From contig NC_134029.1 of assembly GCF_964204645.1 (NCBI RefSeq), positions 246,001-310,000 of the forward strand: a stretch of 64,000 nt of DNA, read 5' to 3'. Under the pieces are notes generated by a model, which was given only the letters and a program-made list of their open reading frames with translations, was not told the DNA's origin and did no database searches. Shown piece by piece: positions 15,501 to 50,809 of the stretch. Numbering within the stretch: the first letter of the stretch is position 1; each line of letters starts with the position of its first letter. The stretch comes from Tubulanus polymorphus (Eukaryota; Nemertea; Palaeonemertea; Tubulaniformes; Tubulanidae). The translations under genes and the position numbers were made by a program.

Positions 15501-18500
15501 AGGGCTATGTATTGTTGATGAGGACCTATTAGATCAGACTCCTAAATGGGGGTTTAGAGGGGGAGGGGGGCTGATCATGATCTATTTATATTTTACTAGG
15601 TTTACAATGATTCTATTCAAGGTTGTGAGGTAGAATTGATGAGTATTCTGTGAGGCTGAATAGAAGGGATTGGGGTGTAATTTTAGCTGCTAGGGATCCA
15701 GGGTTGAGGGGGAGGGGGTGGAACACCTGATATCGATCTAATATGACTCTAAATGATGTAATATTGTATAAGACACTGTTTTGATGAAGCTGAAAATGAC
15801 TGTGAAATGAGACTGAATTCAATGGTTGATTAATTCAATATAAACACAGCCTGAAGCAATCAATAATTGGGTTGAATAAAAGAGAAAATATTTCACATCC
15901 AGGTGCAACATTATTTATATCTTACATAAATTCAATGCAATAATAAGACAAAGACATAGAGGCTCATAACACAGGGACGCTGCTCTTTTATACCCAAAGA
16001 AAGACAGTTCTAAAAAAAATGATCCCTCCAGTGAGGTGTTTTATTGGAAAATACCAAATGACCAAATTTACCAAAATGGGCCCAATCAAGCCAGCACAGC
16101 TCTGCTAACCCTAGGTCATTAACCCTAGCTCCAGTCCCAACTGGGATTTGAACCGGGGTCTCTTACTTGTCAGTCCACTGTCCTAACCTCTAGACCACTG
16201 AGCTCTAGTGACTGATAGGGTTTGAAGGTTTGTGCAATGGTCAGTGGTGACCAGTCAGGTGTGGTGAGGTAACTCTATTCAATGACAATACTCCCCCTCA
16301 ACCCCCCTCCCCCTCAACCCCCCTCCCCCTTCGCCTGCTATCATCTTCTGTTTATAAAGAGATGAATTATGAAGTAGTTTAATCCAATGAATCTCCTGTT
16401 GGCTTCTCAGAAAATATTGAGAATTAACTGATGAATTTATCCCCCCCCCCAATTACTCAACTTGTACATAACATATTCATAATGAAAAAATCAGAAAAAC
16501 ACATCAAACAAAATAATAAAGCCCCAATAGAGGAGAGAGAGGAGAGAGTGTTTGAAGAGAGAGGAGAGAGTGTTTGAAGAGAGAGGAGAGAGTGTTTGAA
16601 GAGAGAGGAGAGAGTGTTTGAAGAGAGAGGAGAGAGTGTTTGAAGAGAGAGGAGAGAGTGTTTGAAGAGAGAGGAGAGAGTGTTTGAAGAGAGAGGAGAG
16701 AGTGTTTGAAGAGAGAGGAGAGAGTGTTTGAAGAGAGAGGAGAGAGTGTTTGAAGAGAGAGGAGAGAGTGTTTGAAGAGAGAGGAGAGAGTGTTTGAAGA
16801 GAGAGGAGAGAGTGTTTGAAGAGAGAGGAGAGAGTGTTTGGAGAGAGAGGAGAGAGTGTTTGAAGAGAGAGGAGAGAGTGTTTGAAGAGAGAGGAGAGAG
16901 TGTTTGAAGAGAGAGGAGAGAGTGTTTGAAGAGAGAGGAGAGAGTGTTTGAAGAGAGAGGAGAGAGTGTTTGAAGAGAGAGGAGAGAGTGTTTGAAGAGA
17001 GAGGAGAGAGTGTTTGAAGAGAGAGGAGAGAGTGTTTGAAGAGAGAGGAGAGAGTGTTTGAAGAGAGAGGAGAGAGTGTTTGAAGAGAGAGGAGAGAGTG
17101 TTTGAAGAGAGAGGAGAGAGTGTTTGAAGAGAGAGGAGAGAGTGTTTGAAGAGAGAGGAGAGAGTGTTTGGAGAGAGAGGAGAGAGTGTTTGAAGAGAGA
17201 GGAGAGAGTGTTTGAAGAGAGAGGAGAGAGTGTTTGAAGTACTGTATTGACAGACAGTGTATGTGTTCGAGGAGACACTTATACTTCAGTGATATATTTG
17301 TATGAGCAATTTATATTTAATACATTGTAAACTACAGTACTGATAATCTATATTCCATCCCCCCCCCCCCCGTACTCCCCATGAGACTCCCCCTCTCCTC
17401 CTCCCCCTCCCCCCCACTCATGAGACTACTCACTAATCTGTATTATATATTTGTAGGTAAGAATGGAGAGATAGTTTATAGTATAATATCAGGAGACATC
17501 GATGGATATTTTACGATCGGATCCAGAAATGGTACAATCTGCTCGGCTCGAGTTTTAGATAGAGAAATGACTAGTGTTTATAATCTAGTAGTGAAAGCAT
17601 TAGATCAGTCGACTGATACTAATAATAGATTCTCTAGTACGGCTCAGGTAACAAACTCTATCTCATTAATTTAAACCGACTCATTTACACAAATTTGATT
17701 CTAATATTCTGATTATTGTTTGTTGCTAGGTAACGATTCGTCTATTAGACGTTAACGATTGCGCGCCTGTGTTCACCTCGGCGACGGTTGCCCGGATACC
17801 GGAGAATACCAGTCCTAACACGGTAGCGTATACGGCGGTTGCCGTTGACGACGATGCGGGTACTAACGGTTACGTGGAGTATTCGATTGTTGCGTCTCCC
17901 GGCGACGGTTTATTTACGATTAACGCGTTCGACGGAAAGTTACGAGTTATCGGTAAATTAGACCGAGAAACGACCTTGAATTATACGATCGTATTACGAG
18001 CTCGAGATAAAGGTCAACCGACGCGGCAGACGGATATGAGTTTACACGTTTGGGTCGAGGATGAGAATGATAACTCACCTGAGTTTACTCGTAAACAGTA
18101 CTCGATACCGGTGAGCGAGGATGTAGATATCGGGTTTCAACTAATTAAAGTACGAGCCACCGATAAAGACATCGGTCTAAACGCAGCTATCAGATACTAC
18201 ATCGTCAACGGCGACGATAATCAGGATTTCATCGTCGGAGAAAAAACGGGAATTCTAACGGTGAATCGTAAATTAGATTACGAGCGTAATCGCGATTACA
18301 CTCTTTACGTACAGGCTGAGGATAGCGGGATAGTAACACGTTCCGATACCGCTACTGTAACTATCTCGGTTCTAGATGTGAACGATTTCGCTCCGATATT
18401 TCAACATTCTCCGTATATCGGATTCATTCGAGAGAATGTTTACAGTTTACCGGTTCACGTATTAACCGTTACCGCTAGAGACGATGATTCTACGGCTAAC

Positions 18501-33634: not shown

Positions 33635-33957
33635 GACGTCGACTTGGATAGGCAACCAGTCTATTGAGAACTTGGTGGCAGCAGCATACGGTCCCCTAGC
33701 GGAATTTCTGTGAACTAATCTTATAACGCGGGCTGATATACTCACAATGACCATATGAACACTTTTAGAATTCGGATACACAACCAATTCCACTCTAAAA
33801 TAATCAATATAGTCGGCAGCAAAGCAGGTTACCAGTAAACAAGGGTTTTCAACTACCCGGTACACTTGCTTACTTCATAGAAATTCCGCTTGGTGACCGT
33901 ATGGTGCTGCCACCAGGTTGGTGCTTCGATGATTGGTAGACTGGTTGCCTGTCCGAT
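33635..33957. mobile_element. Foldback MITE-like element, about 320 bp
   Basis: The left arm (about 33642-33714) and right arm (about 33880-33956) are imperfect inverted repeats. Shared words include AGGCAACCAGTCTA, GGTGGCAGCA and AGCGGAATTTCT. The arm word GGCAGCACCATACGGTC (read on the minus strand) resembles the end of the 178-bp element that follows. No transposase is present. Confidence 0.65.
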
Positions 33958-34202: not shown

Positions 34203-34610
34203 AAACCTGGGATGTCCAATCTAGTCAGCATTCAGAATAACTCAGAATCAGTATCAGTTATTCCTCGAACCTGGAACACCCCTGTAATCCCTCTATTCAG
34301 CATCGGAATCACTCTGAATCAGTATCAGTAATTACTGGGTTCAAACCCGAGACACCCCTGTACATCCTCTATTCAGCAGTAATTACTGGGTTTGAACCTG
34401 GGAACCCTTAAACTGGCTACTGGTTCAGAGTGATCCTGATGCTGAATAGATGATGTACAGGGGTGTCCAGGGTTCGAACCCAGTAATTACTGATACTGAT
34501 TCAGAGTTGTCCTGATGCTGAATAGAGGATGTACAGGGTGTCCAGGGTTTGAACCCAGTAATAACTGACACTTATTCAGAGTGGTCCTGAGGATGTACAG
34601 GGGTGACCGG

Positions 34611-34788
34611 ACCGTACGGTGCTGCCGCTATGCTCATCGTTAGCGGGGTTTTCATACACTAACTAAAGTCAACTCTGGCAATCGACGTGCTGTCCAGTTA
34701 TACTTCGTAATCCTAGCTTGCCAGAGTTGACTAACGTTAGTGTATGAAAATCCCACTAACGATGAGCATAGAGGCAGCAACGTACGGT
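34611..34788. mobile_element. 178-bp foldback element, copy 1
   Basis: Two arms of about 70 bp, starting ACCGTACGGTGCTGCC and ending GGCAGCAACGTACGGT, face each other around a loop of about 38 bp. The outer ten bases are themselves a palindrome. The copy carries one terminal mismatch. Confidence 0.9.
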
Positions 34789-35729
34789 AAAATGTTGATA
34801 TTCTAACGAAGGTAATTACTGATTGGTCAGAGTGGTCCTGATGCTGAATAGAGGATGTACAGGGGTGTCCCAGGTTCGAACCCAGTAATTACTGATACTG
34901 ATTAAGAGTGGTCCTGATGCTGGATAGAGGATGTAAGATGGGTGTTCCGGGTTCAGACCCAGTAATTACTGATACTGATTCAGAGTGGTCCTGATACTAA
35001 ATAGAGGAAGTACCGGGGTGTTCCGGGTTCGAGAACCAGTAATTACTGATACTGATTCAGAGTGGTCCTGATACTAAATAGAGGATGTACAGGGGTGTTC
35101 CGGGTTCAGACCCAGTAATTACTGATACTGATTCAGAGTGGTCCTGATACTAAATAGAGGATGTACAGGGGTGTTCCGGGTTCAGACCCAGTAATTACTG
35201 ATACTGATTCAGAGTGGTCCTGATGCTGAATAAAGGAAGTACCGGGGTGTTCCGGGTTCGAGAACCAGTAATTACTGATAGTGATTCAGAGTGGTCCTGA
35301 TGCTGAATAAGAGGATGTACAGGGTGTTCCGGGTTCAGGGGTGTCCTGGGTTCGAGAACCAGTAATTACTGATACTGATTCAGAGTGGTCCTGATGCTGA
35401 ATAAAGGAAGTACCGGGGTGTTCCGGGTTCGAGAACCAGTAATTACTGATACTGATTCAGAGTGGTCCTGATACTAAATAGAGGATGTACAGGGGTGTTC
35501 CGGGTTCAGACCCAGTAATTACTGATACTGATTCAGAGTGGTCCTGATACTAAATAGAGGATGTACAGGGGTGTTCCGGGTTCAGACCCAGTAATTACTG
35601 ACACTGAATCAGTGTAGTCCTGATGCTGAATAGAGGATGTAGGGGTGTCTCGGGTTCGAACCCAGTAATTACTGATACTGATTCAGAGTGGTCCTGATGC
35701 TGAATAAGAGGATGTACAGGGGTGTCCAG

Positions 35730-35907
35730 ACCGTACGGTGCTGCCGCTATGCTCATCGTTAGCGGGGTTTTCATACACTAACTTAAGTCAACTCTGGCAA
35801 TCGACGTGCTGTCCAGTTATACTCCGTAACCCTAGCTTGCCACAGTTGACTAACGTTAGTGTATGAAAATCCCGCTAACGATGAGCATAAAGGCAGCACC
35901 GTACGGT
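35730..35907. mobile_element. 178-bp foldback element, copy 2
   Basis: Same length, ends and internal layout as copy 1. It has AACTTAAG in place of AACTAAAG in the left arm. Confidence 0.9.
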
Positions 35908-36564
35908 AAAATATTGATATCCTAACAAACGTAATTACTGATACTGATTCAGATAGATCCTAATACTGAATAGAGGATGTACAGGGGTGTCCCAGGTTCG
36001 GACCCAGTAATTACTGATACTGATTAAGAGTGGTCCAATAGTTACTGATACTGATTCAGAGTGTTCCTGATGCTGAATAGAGGAAGTACCGGAGTGTTCC
36101 GGGTTCGAGAACCAGTAATTACTGATATTGGTTCAGTGGTCCTGATGCTGAATAAGATGATGTACAGGGGTGTTCCGGGTTCGAGAACCAGTAATTACTG
36201 ATACTGATTCAGAGTGGTCCTGATGCTGAATAAAGGAAGTACCGGGTTGTCCCGGGTTCGAGAACGAGTAATTACTGATAACTGATTCAGAGTGGCCCTG
36301 ATGCTGAATAAAGGAAGTACCGGGGTGTCCCGGGTTCGAGAACCAGTAATTACTGTTAGTGATTCAGAGTGGTCCTGATGCTGAATAAGAGGATGTACCA
36401 GGGTGTTCCGGGTTCGAGAACCAGTAATTACTGATACTGATTCAGAGTGGTCCTGATGCTGAATAAAGGAAGTACCGGGGTGTTCCGGGTTCGAGAACCA
36501 GTAATTACTGATACTGATTCAGAGTGGTCCTGATGCTGAATAAGAGGATGTACAGGGTGTCCAG

Positions 36565-36742
36565 ACCGTACGGTGCTGCCGCTATGCTGATCGTTAGCGG
36601 GGTTTTCAAACACTAACTAAAGTCAACTCTGGCAATTGACGTGCTGTCCAGTTATAGTTCGTAATCCTAGCTTGCCAGAGTTGACTAACGTTAGTGTATG
36701 AAAATCCCACCAACGATGAGCATAGAGGCAGCACCGTACGGT
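36565..36742. mobile_element. 178-bp foldback element, copy 3
   Basis: Same length and ends. It differs at TCAAACACT, CAATTGACGTG and CACCAACGATG. Confidence 0.9.
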
Positions 36743-37271
36743 AAAATGTTAATATCTTAACAAAAGTAATTACTGATTGGTTAGAGTGGTCCTGATGCTG
36801 AATAGATGATATACAGGGGTGTCCCAGGTTCGAACCCAGTAATGACTGATACTGATTAAGAGTGGTCCTGATGCTGGATAGAGGATGTACAGGTTGTCCC
36901 GGGTTCGAGAACCAGTAATTACTGATACTGATTCAGAGTGGTCCAATAGTTACTTATACTGATCCAGAGTGTTCCTGATTCTGAATAGAGGATGTACAGG
37001 TTGTCCCGGGTTCGAGAACCAGTAATTACTGATACTGATTCAGAGTGGTCCAATAGTTACTGATACTGATTCAGAGTGGTCCTGATGCTGAATAAGATGA
37101 TGTACCGGGGTGTTCCGGGTTCGAGAACCAGTAATTACTGATACTGATTCAGAATGATCCTGATGCTGAATAAGGGATGTACAGGGTTGTCCCGGGTTCG
37201 AGAACCAGTAATTACTGATACTGATTCAGAGTGGTCCTGATGCTGAATAAGGGATGTACAGGGGTGTCCAG

Positions 37272-37449
37272 ACCGTACGGTGCTGCCGCTATGCTCATCG
37301 TTAGCGGGGTTTTCATACACTAACTAAAGTCAACTCTGGCAATCGACGTGCTGTCCAGTTATACTTCGTAACCCTAGCTTGCCGGAGTTGACTAACGTTA
37401 GTGTATGAATATCCCGCTACCGATGAGCATAGAGGCAGCACCGTACGGT
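37272..37449. mobile_element. 178-bp foldback element, copy 4
   Basis: Same length and ends. It has GCCGGAGTTGAC in the loop-side arm and CGCTACCGATG in the right arm. Confidence 0.9.
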
Positions 37450-37917
37450 AAAATGTTGATATCTTAACAAAAGTAATTACTGATTGGTTAGAGTGGTCCT
37501 GATGCTGTATAGATGATATACAGGGGTGTCCCGGGTTCGAACCCAGTAATTACTGATACTGATTCAGAGTGGTCCTGATGCTGAATAGAGGATGTACAGG
37601 GGTGTCCCGGGTTCGAGAACCAGTAATTACTGATACTGATTCAGAGTGGTCCTGATGCTGAATAGAGGATGTACAGGGGTGTTTTCCGGGTTCGAGAACC
37701 AGTAATTACTAATACTGATTTAGAGTGGTCGATGCTGAATAGAGGATGTACAGGGGTGTCCCGGGTTCGACAACCAGTAATTACTGATACTGATTCAGAG
37801 CGGTCCTGATGCTGAATAGAGGAAGTACCTGGGTGTGTCCCGGGTTCGAGAACCAGTAATTAGTGATATTGGTTCAGTGGTCCTGATGCTGAATAGAGGA
37901 TGTTCAGGGGTGTCCAG

Positions 37918-38095
37918 ACCGTACGGTGCTGCCGCTATGCTCATCGTTAGCGGGGTTTTCATACACTAACTAAAGTCAACTCTGGCAATCGACGTGCTGT
38001 CCGGTTATACTTCGTAATCCTAGCTTGCCAGAGTTGACTAACGTTAGTGTATGAAAATCCCACTACCGATGAGCATAGAGGCAGCACCGTACGGT
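37918..38095. mobile_element. 178-bp foldback element, copy 5
   Basis: Same length and ends. It shares the CTACCGATG variant with copy 4 but not its GCCGGAG variant. Confidence 0.9.
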
Positions 38096-38333
38096 AAAAT
38101 GTTGATATCTTAACAAAAGTAATTACTGATTGGTTAGAGTGGTCCTGATGCTGAATAGATGATATACAGGGGGTGTCCCGGGTTCGAACCCAGTAATTAC
38201 TGATACTGATTAAGAGTGGTCCTGATGCTGAATAGAGGAAGTACCGGGGTGTCCCGGGTTCGAGAACCAGTAATTACTGATACTGATTAAGAGTGGTCCT
38301 GATGCTGAATAGAGGATGTACAGGGGTGTCCAG

Positions 38334-38511
38334 ACCGTACGGTGCTGCCGCTATGCTCATCGTTAGCGGGGTTTTCATACACTAACTAAAGTCAACTCTG
38401 GCAATCGACGTGCTGTCCAGTTATACTTCGTAACCCTAGCTTGCCGGAGTTGACTAACGTTAGTTTATGAAAATCCCACTAACGATGAGCATAGAGGCAG
38501 CACCGTACGGT
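38334..38511. mobile_element. 178-bp foldback element, copy 6
   Basis: Same length and ends. It shares GCCGGAGTTGAC with copies 4 and 7 and GTTAGTTTATG with copy 7. Confidence 0.9.
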
Positions 38512-39088
38512 AAAATATTGATATCTTAACAAAAGTAATTACTGATTGGTTAGAGTGGTCCTGATGCTGAATAGATGATATACAGGGGTGTCCCGGGTTC
38601 GATCCAAGTAATTACTGATACTGATTCAGAGTGGTCCTGATGCTGAAGAGAGGATGTACAGGGGTGTTTTCCGGGTTCGAGAACCAGTAATTACTGATAC
38701 TGATTCAGAGTGGTCCAATAGTTACTGATACTGATTCAGAGTGTTCCTGATGCTGAATAGAGGAAGTACCGGGTTGTCCCGGGTTCGAGAACCAGTAATT
38801 ACTGATACTGATTCAGAATGATCCTGATGCTGAATAGAGGATGTACAGGGGTGTCCCGGGTTCGAACCCAGTAATTACTGATACTGATTCAGAGTGGTCC
38901 TGATGCTGAATAAGATGATGTACAGGGGTGTCCCGGGTTCGACAACCAGTAATTACTGATACTGATTCAGAGTGGTCCTGAAGCTGAATAGAGGAAGTAC
39001 CGGAGTGTTCCGGGTCCGAGAACCAGTAATTACTGATATTGGTTCTGTGGTCCTGATGCTGAATAAGATGATGTACAGGGGTGTCCAG

Positions 39089-39266
39089 ACCGTACGGTGC
39101 TGCCGCTATGCTCATCGTTAGCGGGGTTTTCATACACTAACTAAAGTCAACTCTGGCAATCGACGTGCTGTCCAGTTATACTTCGTAACCCTCGCTTGCC
39201 GGAGTTGACTAACGTTAGTTTATGAAAATCCCACTAACGATGAGCATAGAGGCAGCACCGTACGGT
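39089..39266. mobile_element. 178-bp foldback element, copy 7
   Basis: Same length and ends. The loop reads CCTCGCTTGCCGGAGT, close to the dispersed CTCGCATGCCAGAGT word. It is closest to copy 6. Confidence 0.9.
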
Positions 39267-39655
39267 AAAATATTGATATCTTAAAAGTAATTACTGATTG
39301 GTTAGAGTGGCCCTGATGCTGAATAGATGATATACAGGGGTGTCCCGGGTTCGATCCCAGTAATTACTGATACTGATTCAGAGTGGTCCTGATGCTGAAT
39401 AGAGGATGTACAGGGGTGTTTTCCGGGTTCGAGAACCAGTAATTACTGATACTGATTCAGAGTGGTCCTGATGCTGAATAGAGGAAGTACCTGGGTGTCC
39501 CGGGTTCGAGAACCAGTAATTACTGATCCTAATTCAGAGTGGTCCTGATGCTGAATAGAGGAAGTACCGGGTTCGAGAACCAGTAATTACTGATACTGAT
39601 TCAGAATGATCCTGATGCTAAACAGAGGATGTGTAGGGGTGTGTCCTGGGTTCAA

Positions 39656-40585: not shown

Positions 40586-42480
40586 TTAAAGTCCGATAGT
40601 GTAAGACCTTCCTTTAGGGTTATGTATAGGCATCGGCCTCGGTTCACTAATACACCATTCGTACCAGACGTTCTTATTATCGGTTAATCTCCAGAAATGA
40701 ATCTTCAACGTTTCTCCAGATTTCATGTAAACCGGTTCGCGTATCGGGAACAGTATCGGAAACCAGCTGAACATACCGGGTGAATGAGTATCCGGATTGA
40801 TACTTAACATTACGTCTTTATATAGATACGTATCGAAGTATCCGGCGATACCGTGGACGATACAGTTTTGATCGACGGTGAATGTATTCTGATTATAGCG
40901 AGTATTATCGATAGGTATCGACCGATTCGGATGAGTAAATGTAAACACGGACTGAGGTTTACCCAATAAACTACAGTTATGTAACCTAACGACGAACGGA
41001 GTTTCAAACGGAGTCTCCGCCGGTTTATCTTTCTCTTTACACAATCGAACCTCGTTAAAAAGTCGCGACGATTGAATAGGAGCGAGATACGACGTGTATT
41101 TATACGGGATACTAATCCCGTCCGGTTTGAGGAATTTCTGAGCTCCGTCGAGACATTCCGGGGATAGTTCGTTATCCCCGAACGATCCCAGTAATTCGCT
41201 TACGATTATATCCGCTTTTTCCGGGGCGTCCCATATTCTCATATCGGACGAGACAACTGTCACCTGATCACCCCATTCTTCTAGTTTTCGATTCTCCAAG
41301 GTAACGATCGCGTTTGGATTTTTCTCGACGGCGAAGATTCGTATTTTGCGATGAGCCTTAGCGGCGGCGATGATGGAGGCTTGAACGAGCGGACCTCGAC
41401 CGGCTCCGACTACCATCACTACCTGTACGTTAAACTCCTTCTCTTCATACGGTACTCGATCTAACAACGCGAAATAAACAGCTTTCTGATATTGAGAATA
41501 TTTTATCGGATCTTTCTCGAAAACTTCGTAAGTTTGAGATTCGAGATTGTCCATTAACGGTTGCAGCGGACTTTGTAAATAATCCTCGAAACCCTTAGCG
41601 AACAGCGCCACCTGGTCTAACTGAGGTTTCGTCTGCCAGATGGCCAGATGTGTTCGAGATATTGACCGTAAACTTTCATTCCTTTACCGGGAAATTGCGT
41701 CGTCCCGGAAACGATCATCTGAATATTGAGTTTAAATAACCAGCGCAACAATGACTGATGACACCTCGGTAACACGGGGTAACCCTTTTTATTAGCGAGG
41801 AATAAACGTGTCGGTATAAATACAGCTTTAACCGGTTCACCCGCCCATCTTTCTATCTCTTTCTCCGACGGTAAATCTTCCTGTAATTCCAACGCGATTC
41901 CCACTTTCTTGTTTGTGTCGCAAAATGTACGAAAACGATTCCACCATTCCCACGTGTCGGTCTCGGTGGCGCCGTCTATATCACCGTCGAATACTGGATC
42001 TAATTGAGTACTAGCCGGTTTAATCGGTATTTTAATCCAGTATTGTTGATTGGGACCCTTGATCAGATGTTCCGATAGACATCGAGCTAAACCGATACAA
42101 TCATAGCTCCTCAGATTAATCAATACAGCTGGTAATGACAGGTGCCCCGCGAATAGGAATTCCTGTTTTAAAGCTTTCTCAGAGTTTTTACGATGAATCT
42201 CGTTTTTACTGTCGAGATCGATCCAAGGTGAAATCTTACCGACGACTAACGAACTCCAGTCCTGACTAGTGATCACTAGATCAGACCTGGTTAAAGGTTC
42301 AGCTCGATTCACGGCCGGAGTCCCGCCGATTAATTCAGATTTGAATCGAGGATTCACGATCGGACAGGTTATAAACTCGTATCCTGATTTTCCGGCTTCA
42401 TCGAGAGCTTTAGTGATATCTGGTACGTCGAAGTAATCTAACCCGCTGGCGCACCGGTTAGAACTGCTCGCCTCAGTCAT
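40586..42480 (-). CDS. PRMT5: Protein arginine N-methyltransferase 5, intronless, one frameshift
   Basis: PRMT5 makes symmetric dimethylarginine on Sm proteins and histones, usually with WDR77/MEP50. The ATG is at 42480 ([10 protein letters not shown]) and the protein ends GRSYTIGL at 40586, as in other PRMT5s. An N-terminal TIM-barrel half ([29 protein letters not shown]) precedes the Rossmann fold with VVGAGRGPL (SAM binding), [11 protein letters not shown] and the catalytic double-E loop [15 protein letters not shown]; a beta-barrel half follows. Two open frames (42480-41617 and 41611-40586) are one gene. GCCAGATG occurs twice in tandem at 41635-41650, and discounting one copy gives 629 codons including the stop, close to the human 637 residues. 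No intron is present, unlike vertebrate PRMT5. It could be a native single-exon gene with an allelic or assembly error, or a young retrocopy. Confidence 0.9.
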
Positions 42481-43023
42481 TTTTCTCGAAGAAAATCAAC
42501 TTCTTTTCGATGATTTTTGCAGATTTCGAGAACCCGGAAGTAAAAGTAAAATTCACATGGCTCACTCAAGAGAGGTATGCACCGGCACGCGAGTACCATA
42601 AGCAAAATCTTTTTCTATGATATCAAGACGATACAAAAAGTAACTACAAACAGTTCTCATTCAAAAACAGATATTGAGTTCTAAATTATAGAAATAAACA
42701 AATAAGTAAAGGAAATAAAGTATCGTCGATTCAGCTGAGGGTTAGTTGTAGTTTCGGTGCATTAGTAGGGCGCTTCCGGCGGCTCCTAGACTCAGTATTT
42801 TTCCTAGTAGATATTAGACCAATGTGATATAAATGTATTTGGAATTAAACTAAGTGTCAAAGATCGAAAACTTTTCTTGAAAATATAGAATCCGATTAAA
42901 CCATCCTCCTCATAGAAAACATTTGTTTCAGCTTCATAAAATCATGAAAAACCAACCAATCAAAATCTATGATACACATTTATTTTTTAATTTATCTATT
43001 TACAGTTGAATTCACATCGATTT
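42481..43023 (-). promoter_or_regulatory. PRMT5 upstream region with ETS-type site; PRCC 3' flank
   Basis: ACCCGGAAGT at 42532-42541 is an ETS/NRF-2-type site, read as ACTTCCGGGT toward PRMT5, about 55 bp before its ATG. Such sites are common in housekeeping promoters. TTTATT at 42979-42984 gives a minus-strand AATAAA about 40 bp after the PRCC stop. No gene is seen between. Confidence 0.5.
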
Positions 43024-50663: not shown

Positions 50664-50809
50664 ACCGTCAAGTGCTGCCCCTATCCATACCGTTAACGGT
50701 AGATTAGTGAACTAACTTATTACTCGCATGCCAGAGTCGGAATATTAAGTGATTGAGTTAGTTCACATTTTCACCGCTTATTGAATATATAGGGGCAGCA
50801 CTTGACGGT
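50664..50809. mobile_element. 146-bp foldback MITE
   Basis: A perfect 21-bp terminal inverted repeat begins ACCGTCAAGTGCTGCCCC at 50664 and ends at 50809. A second inner inverted pair is GTGAACTAAC and GTTAGTTCAC. The centre holds ACTCGCATGCCAGAGTC. The terminal pattern ACCGTnnnGTGCTGCC matches that of the 178-bp elements in the satellite. Confidence 0.85.

Follow-up and report, generated by a model that had tools for sequence, protein, structure and literature searches.

A MITE-like foldback element within a 76-bp satellite of Tubulanus polymorphus: junction, relatives and genome-wide distribution

The composite array and its surroundings

The stretch of DNA analysed (the window, 64,000 nt) corresponds to C5:246,001-310,000 on a chromosome-scale contig of 24.87 Mb, in an assembly of 267.8 Mb with 11 chromosome-size contigs and TTAGGG repeats. 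A composite array lies in the window between cadherin-type exons on one side (4312-28103) and the PRMT5 coding sequence on the other (minus strand, 40586-42495), and is therefore surrounded by ordinary sequence that bears genes, with some 280 kb between it and the end of the contig. Near the cadherin exons is a 22-bp minisatellite (16534-17239; 32 copies, 99% identity) in which three reverse frames are open. Immediately to the left of the array (33683-33917) is another inverted repeat, whose arms carry the ACCGTATGGTGCTGCC motif with the order reversed and which the MITE profile matched only weakly. The features of the array, and a solitary relative of its element, are:

34206-39655: whole composite array, 5.4 kb
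34206-34378, minus strand: about three satellite units, inverted, at the array's left edge (unit-profile matches hmm 3-66, 1-72, 34-76)
34417-39655, plus strand: 76-bp satellite in direct repetition; some 50 units, complete or partial, among them partial units of 31 bp (unit-profile matches; TRF period 76-78)
34611-34788, plus strand: foldback element copy 1, 178 bp (profile 1-178; MITE-family profile E 2.6e-42)
35730-35907, plus strand: foldback element copy 2, 178 bp (element-profile and MITE-family-profile matches)
36565-36742, plus strand: foldback element copy 3, 178 bp (element-profile and MITE-family-profile matches)
37272-37449, plus strand: foldback element copy 4, 178 bp, the copy used for folding (element and MITE-family profiles, fold)
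37450-37471, plus strand: 22-bp spacer AAAATGTTGATATCTTAACAAA between element and next unit (example, after copy 4)
37918-38095, plus strand: foldback element copy 5, 178 bp (element-profile and MITE-family-profile matches)
38334-38511, plus strand: foldback element copy 6, 178 bp (element-profile and MITE-family-profile matches)
39089-39266, plus strand: foldback element copy 7, 178 bp (element-profile and MITE-family-profile matches)
50664-50809, unstranded: solitary sibling-family MITE, 146 bp, termini ACCGTCAAGTGCTGCC, no satellite nearby (family-profile E 5e-29, the copy itself being included in the profile)

The original prediction placed seven foldback elements at one position of a 76-bp satellite, and profile matching returned 178 bp for each of them. 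Start-to-start gaps were recomputed as 1119, 835, 707, 646, 416 and 755 bp for copies 1-7, which is the irregular range of 416 to 1119 bp given earlier; the inverted units at the left edge had not been noted. The distances between elements fall into steps near 265 + about 75n bp, and the irregularity in the window is the number of whole and 31-bp partial units between elements. Folded as single-stranded DNA, copy 4 forms one long hairpin (-71.5 kcal/mol, z = -16 against shuffles). The region is repetitive and represented by one assembly, as an artefact in array order or copy number might have it; such an artefact is very improbable, as the seven copies differ pairwise by 0.6 to 6.2%, the same structure recurs at tens of separate loci in the assembly and the array has a length of only 5.4 kb.

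The junction and the dispersed relatives of the element

The order at the junction is unit, element, spacer of the form AAAATGTTGATATCTTAACAAA and then the next unit from its first base. The left flank TACAGGGGTGTCCAG is exact in four of the seven copies, the deviants being copy 1 (...GTGACCGG), copy 3 (one G short) and copy 5 (TTCAGG). The right flank AAAATRTTRATATY..., followed by GTAATTACTG, is present in 7/7, with 3 bases of it missing in copy 7, and GATGATATACAGG comes after copies 3-7 (5/7), in agreement with the earlier description of near-identical flanks at every copy. The unit ends at profile position 62-63 in all copies (...GGTGTCC plus two bases, AG in six and GTGACCGG in copy 1). 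An uninterrupted unit would read CGGGTTCGAACCCAGTAATTACTG at this place, and its 13-bp palindromic end CGGGTTCGAACCC (profile positions 64-76) is replaced by the element and the 22-bp spacer. Because these stand where CGGGTTCGAACCC would be, the junction is a replacement and not a clean insertion; no target-site duplication was seen at the array copies. The spacer occurs at nearly all element copies genome-wide, and its first part matches an outer inverted-repeat tip, CAACATTTY, that is kept on the left in three basal copies (L089, L092, L099). Two ideas about palindromes were rejected: the sequences have break points other than CAGTAATTACTG where orientation switches, and a first count suggesting strong palindrome preference of array edges was a linear-profile artefact, the extended edges giving non-significant values (p = 0.11 and 0.21).

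The element is short (178 bp), non-coding and a hairpin over nearly its full length, with arms of about 75 nt, as is expected of a MITE. Further, many of 20 copies from a dispersed family of 146-bp inverted repeats gave end-to-end matches to the seven-copy profile (best E 3e-10), at loci without satellite units. Closer relatives without any unit within 280 bp were found at L122, L126 and L128-L134. Homologous copies, namely these solo copies and the sibling family, are thus present at unrelated sites on many chromosomes, while the copies found of the array form (type I) were all satellite-linked. Target-site duplications were found in none of 9 solo and 21 sibling copies in a scan of offsets and lengths, in which the ends may be mis-set by a few bases; the family is therefore called MITE-like and its superfamily is left unnamed. 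Sequence similarity places the 178-bp foldback in this dispersed MITE-like family, and its ends ACCGTANGGTGCTGCC are those that an autonomous partner transposon would carry.

The solitary MITE at 50664-50809 has some 40 relatives among those scored, at about 80% identity and across the genome, and in several of them the loop motif of the element (TCGCATGCCACAGTA) is repeated a short way upstream. Some relatives have a CACTA tip, which recalls CACTA-type transposons, a placement that we do not claim, given variable tips and no 3-bp duplication. Similarly, a tRNA or SINE origin of the unit, considered for the likeness of GGTTCGAACCC to a B box, was dropped when ARAGORN gave no match and Rfam no tRNA match at E up to 1.

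Genome-wide distribution, turnover and capture history

A 37-nt element-arm pattern had 633 matches in the genome (up to 2 mismatches) and the reversed pattern 0, which excludes chance. The two arms are alike and an element may match once or twice, so that these matches represent about 317 to 633 elements. The element-unit junction is identical in arrays on all 11 chromosomes. Every type I locus examined has units on at least one side, and among the best candidates scored only satellite-linked type I copies were found; profile scoring covered these best candidates, so that counts are lower bounds and some solo type I copies are possible.

The distribution of exact copies is strongly biased towards chromosome ends. 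When exact matches were grouped into 30 clusters, 57% of the clusters were no more than 0.5 Mb from an end and 70% no more than 1 Mb, against expectations of 4.4% and 8.8%, and some loci are single copies in subtelomeric repeats of roughly 10-12 kb (e.g. C4, C7, C10). In the subtelomeric blocks C4:27166082-27289723, C7:22355-55792 and C10:13935240-14194943, one element occurs per 10-14 kb or so (C7: 11.1 kb), and TTAGGG arrays recur close to the ends of C4 and C7. Short dispersed arrays with a fixed internal order, together with flanks outside the array that are common to some loci (L047, L048, L056-L058), would suit a larger mobile element such as a Helitron carrying the composite between chromosomes, as has been reported for satellites of oysters (PMC7492417). 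However, the flank shared among subtelomeric loci extends over 320 to more than 3000 bp, which fits segmental duplication, and we consider a carrier element unlikely, if conceivable.

Homogenisation is stronger within arrays than between them, as in a composite satellite: divergence is 0.032 within and 0.068 between arrays, and 87 of 152 copies have their nearest neighbour in their own array, compared with 5.4 on average and at most 17 in permutations. In the window, copies 6 and 7 diverge by 0.006 (0.6% of sites), whereas the closest relative of copy 2 lies on C4 (C4:1.84 Mb; 0.022) and its array neighbours differ from it by at least 0.039. By these distances, the array is homogenised locally but did not arise in one local burst. 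The idea that the element was amplified seven times locally is not supported, since the capture is older than the array, copies number in the hundreds and copy 2 has its closest relative on another chromosome. The proposed remodelling by unequal exchange does fit the stepwise spacing, the homogenisation within the array and the very small difference between copies 6 and 7; that it is still under way goes beyond one assembly.

In the maximum-likelihood tree, the type I array elements form one clade (99/99) nested among the solo copies L128-L134. The family has been mobile elsewhere, as its dispersed solo copies indicate, and seven separate transpositions into the satellite might be imagined, but position, 22-bp spacer and left end are the same in 7/7 and genome-wide and duplications are absent, so that this reading is scarcely credible. 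One clade, one shared derived junction and the lack of target-site duplications argue instead for one capture of type I followed by co-amplification with the satellite, which we hold to be likely; this degree of confidence applies to the best explanation as a whole, comprising capture, amplification, dispersal and a second capture. The original prediction of a single insertion that spread with the satellite, rather than seven transpositions, is upheld by the same junction on every chromosome, by one clade nested in a dispersed MITE family and by the absence of duplications in array copies and nine solo relatives. Its opposite, an element accompanied by the unit nowhere else and bounded by clean duplications at each copy, was looked for and the single-insertion reading survived. 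Transposition itself is a step that we infer, as neither a pre-insertion allele nor a duplication marks the insertion.

The basal type I-like loci (L089, L092, L099) keep CAACATTTY to the left of ACCGT. This left tip has its counterpart in the right end ACGGTGAAATGTTG at L092, and it comes immediately after the unit's GGTTC at both L092 and L099. Most arrays, including that in the window, are without the left tip and without GGGTTC. This shared loss is a derived mark, and the main arrays would therefore go back to a single altered copy.

A second group (type II, 94/72) in the same tree joins array-linked copies with the solo copies L122 and L126. Type II occupies the same 76-bp unit but adjoins another palindrome, CAGTAATTACTG, in opposite orientation and with different flanks. 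The satellite has probably captured the MITE-like family twice, in presumably independent events. This is the simplest reading and a likely one, though short of certain, given that the type II group is only moderately supported. The reverse relationship would make the 76-bp units tandem repeats in the inverted arms of a foldback transposon centred on the 178-bp hairpin, with the satellite growing out of the transposon, for which Tetris of Drosophila virilis offers a precedent (PMC4079207). At L044 the order is indeed unit-spacer-element-spacer-unit with units pointing outwards on both sides, and at L120 unit-like inverted repeats flank a type II element on both sides. However, the solo copies (L122, L126, L128-L134) and the sibling family have the unit at neither end, type I copies are asymmetric in nearly all cases and the symmetric form is concentrated in one array, which makes a Tetris-like origin improbable.

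Under the preferred sequence of capture and co-amplification, a member of the MITE-like family would have been captured once in one 76-bp unit, where the element and its 22-bp right spacer took the place of the palindromic end CGGGTTCGAACCC; the resulting junction and its identity on all chromosomes are observed. The symmetric tip CAACATTT is still at the left end of basal copies, and a small deletion at this end, which probably came later, is common to most copies. The chimeric unit may then have been amplified along with ordinary units by tandem duplication and by unequal exchange or gene conversion, producing arrays in which elements recur at intervals of roughly 1 to 16 units, consistent with the local homogenisation and in-register spacing found. 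Dispersal between chromosomes, mostly among subtelomeres as the observed bias indicates, might have proceeded by ectopic exchange, segmental duplication or extrachromosomal reinsertion. A second capture would have brought the type II subfamily into the same unit beside the CAGTAATTACTG palindrome, in keeping with its separate clade and different junction and presumably independent of the first.

Stem variation and comparison with known systems

Variation along the composite was compared in 100 complete copies from arrays fetched whole, at loci chosen by similarity. Within arrays, differences were 0.027 and 0.036 for the arms, 0.037 for the loop, 0.040 for the spacer and 0.068 and 0.082 for the adjoining units; between arrays they were 0.046 and 0.060, 0.093, 0.079, and 0.126 and 0.189, respectively. 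The fair comparison is with loop and spacer, because separate exchange of units is possible; when only differences within arrays are considered, loop and spacer overlap with the arms at the level of sites. Distinct indels numbered 5 in 151 bp of arms and 13 in 49 bp of loop plus spacer (p = 3e-5 if uniform), an excess that falls to roughly threefold per base when about seven further arm-truncating events, left out by the requirement for complete copies, are included. In a broader sample, part of which was selected by exact left-arm match, site-level p was 0.005 for the loop and 0.007 for the spacer. Compensatory stem changes, sought as a sign of pairing selection, were too few (4 site-alleles). 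These values are suggestive of a stem favoured over loop and spacer. It is possible, though doubtful, that the hairpin drives the satellite: efficient copying or dispersal would require a chimeric unit whose stem is intact, the stem would be kept free of indels and substitutions while loop, spacer and linked units drift, and the unit would for this reason have recruited the hairpin family more than once.

The route from mobile to satellite DNA is already known from MITE-satellite composites, tandem CMITEs and Tetris, and the mechanisms linking MITEs and satellites have been reviewed (PMC12628747). In Acropora corals, full-size CMITEs form tandem arrays with and without gaps, in which elements and intervening sequence are alike, and the arrays were read as co-amplification and not repeated transposition (PMC2872659). 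The T. polymorphus arrays likewise consist of tandem MITEs co-amplified with the sequence between them; however, CMITEs have TTAA duplications and piggyBac affinity, whereas here there is no duplication, the elements are separated by an independent 76-bp satellite, and the composite occurs throughout the genome with a bias to subtelomeres. Tetris is a foldback transposon that seeded the TIR-220 satellite (PMC4079207) and, as here, connects a foldback element with a satellite as well as with a MITE from its own family, but its satellite repeat lies inside the terminal inverted repeats, in contrast to the mostly asymmetric copies and repeat-free solo elements described above.

In Xenopus, according to the summary in PMC12628747 of Scalvenzi and Pollet (2014), the MITE miDNA4 captured a tandem repeat and carries it. 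As far as that summary goes, a MITE and a pre-existing tandem repeat were joined and then amplified together in both systems, but the roles are exchanged, the captor in T. polymorphus being the satellite. The cut-and-replace segments of bivalve Cg170 and the phBglII400 junctions at a 12-bp palindrome (PMC5139131) offer parallels, namely foreign sequence that takes over part of a satellite monomer at a constant position, and junctions at a palindrome. They differ in that the replacing segment here is an identifiable MITE and the array edges in general have no significant palindrome preference.

What is new here is one satellite with two subfamilies of one MITE-like family at neighbouring palindromes, one of which has been carried to all chromosomes. 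How a transposon fragment is converted into part of a satellite, and whether a hairpin promotes such spread, are questions usually argued from end products. In this one genome are found solo members, an apparent first-stage both-ended copy (L092), the array form derived from it, a probable second capture and arrayed copies in the hundreds, so that both the sequence of events and the idea that stems are favoured are directly testable.

Two other composite repeats were also encountered. At L108 (C1:274300-278200), an unrelated insert of about 171 bp has been amplified together with the same 76-bp satellite; it occurs about seven times, near the variant palindrome GGTTCGATCGAACCC, and is possibly another captured segment. 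At L100 (C8:15086000-15091000), a related foldback element occurs in repeats of 1.4-1.9 kb with an extra insert of about 390 bp, and both junctions are different.
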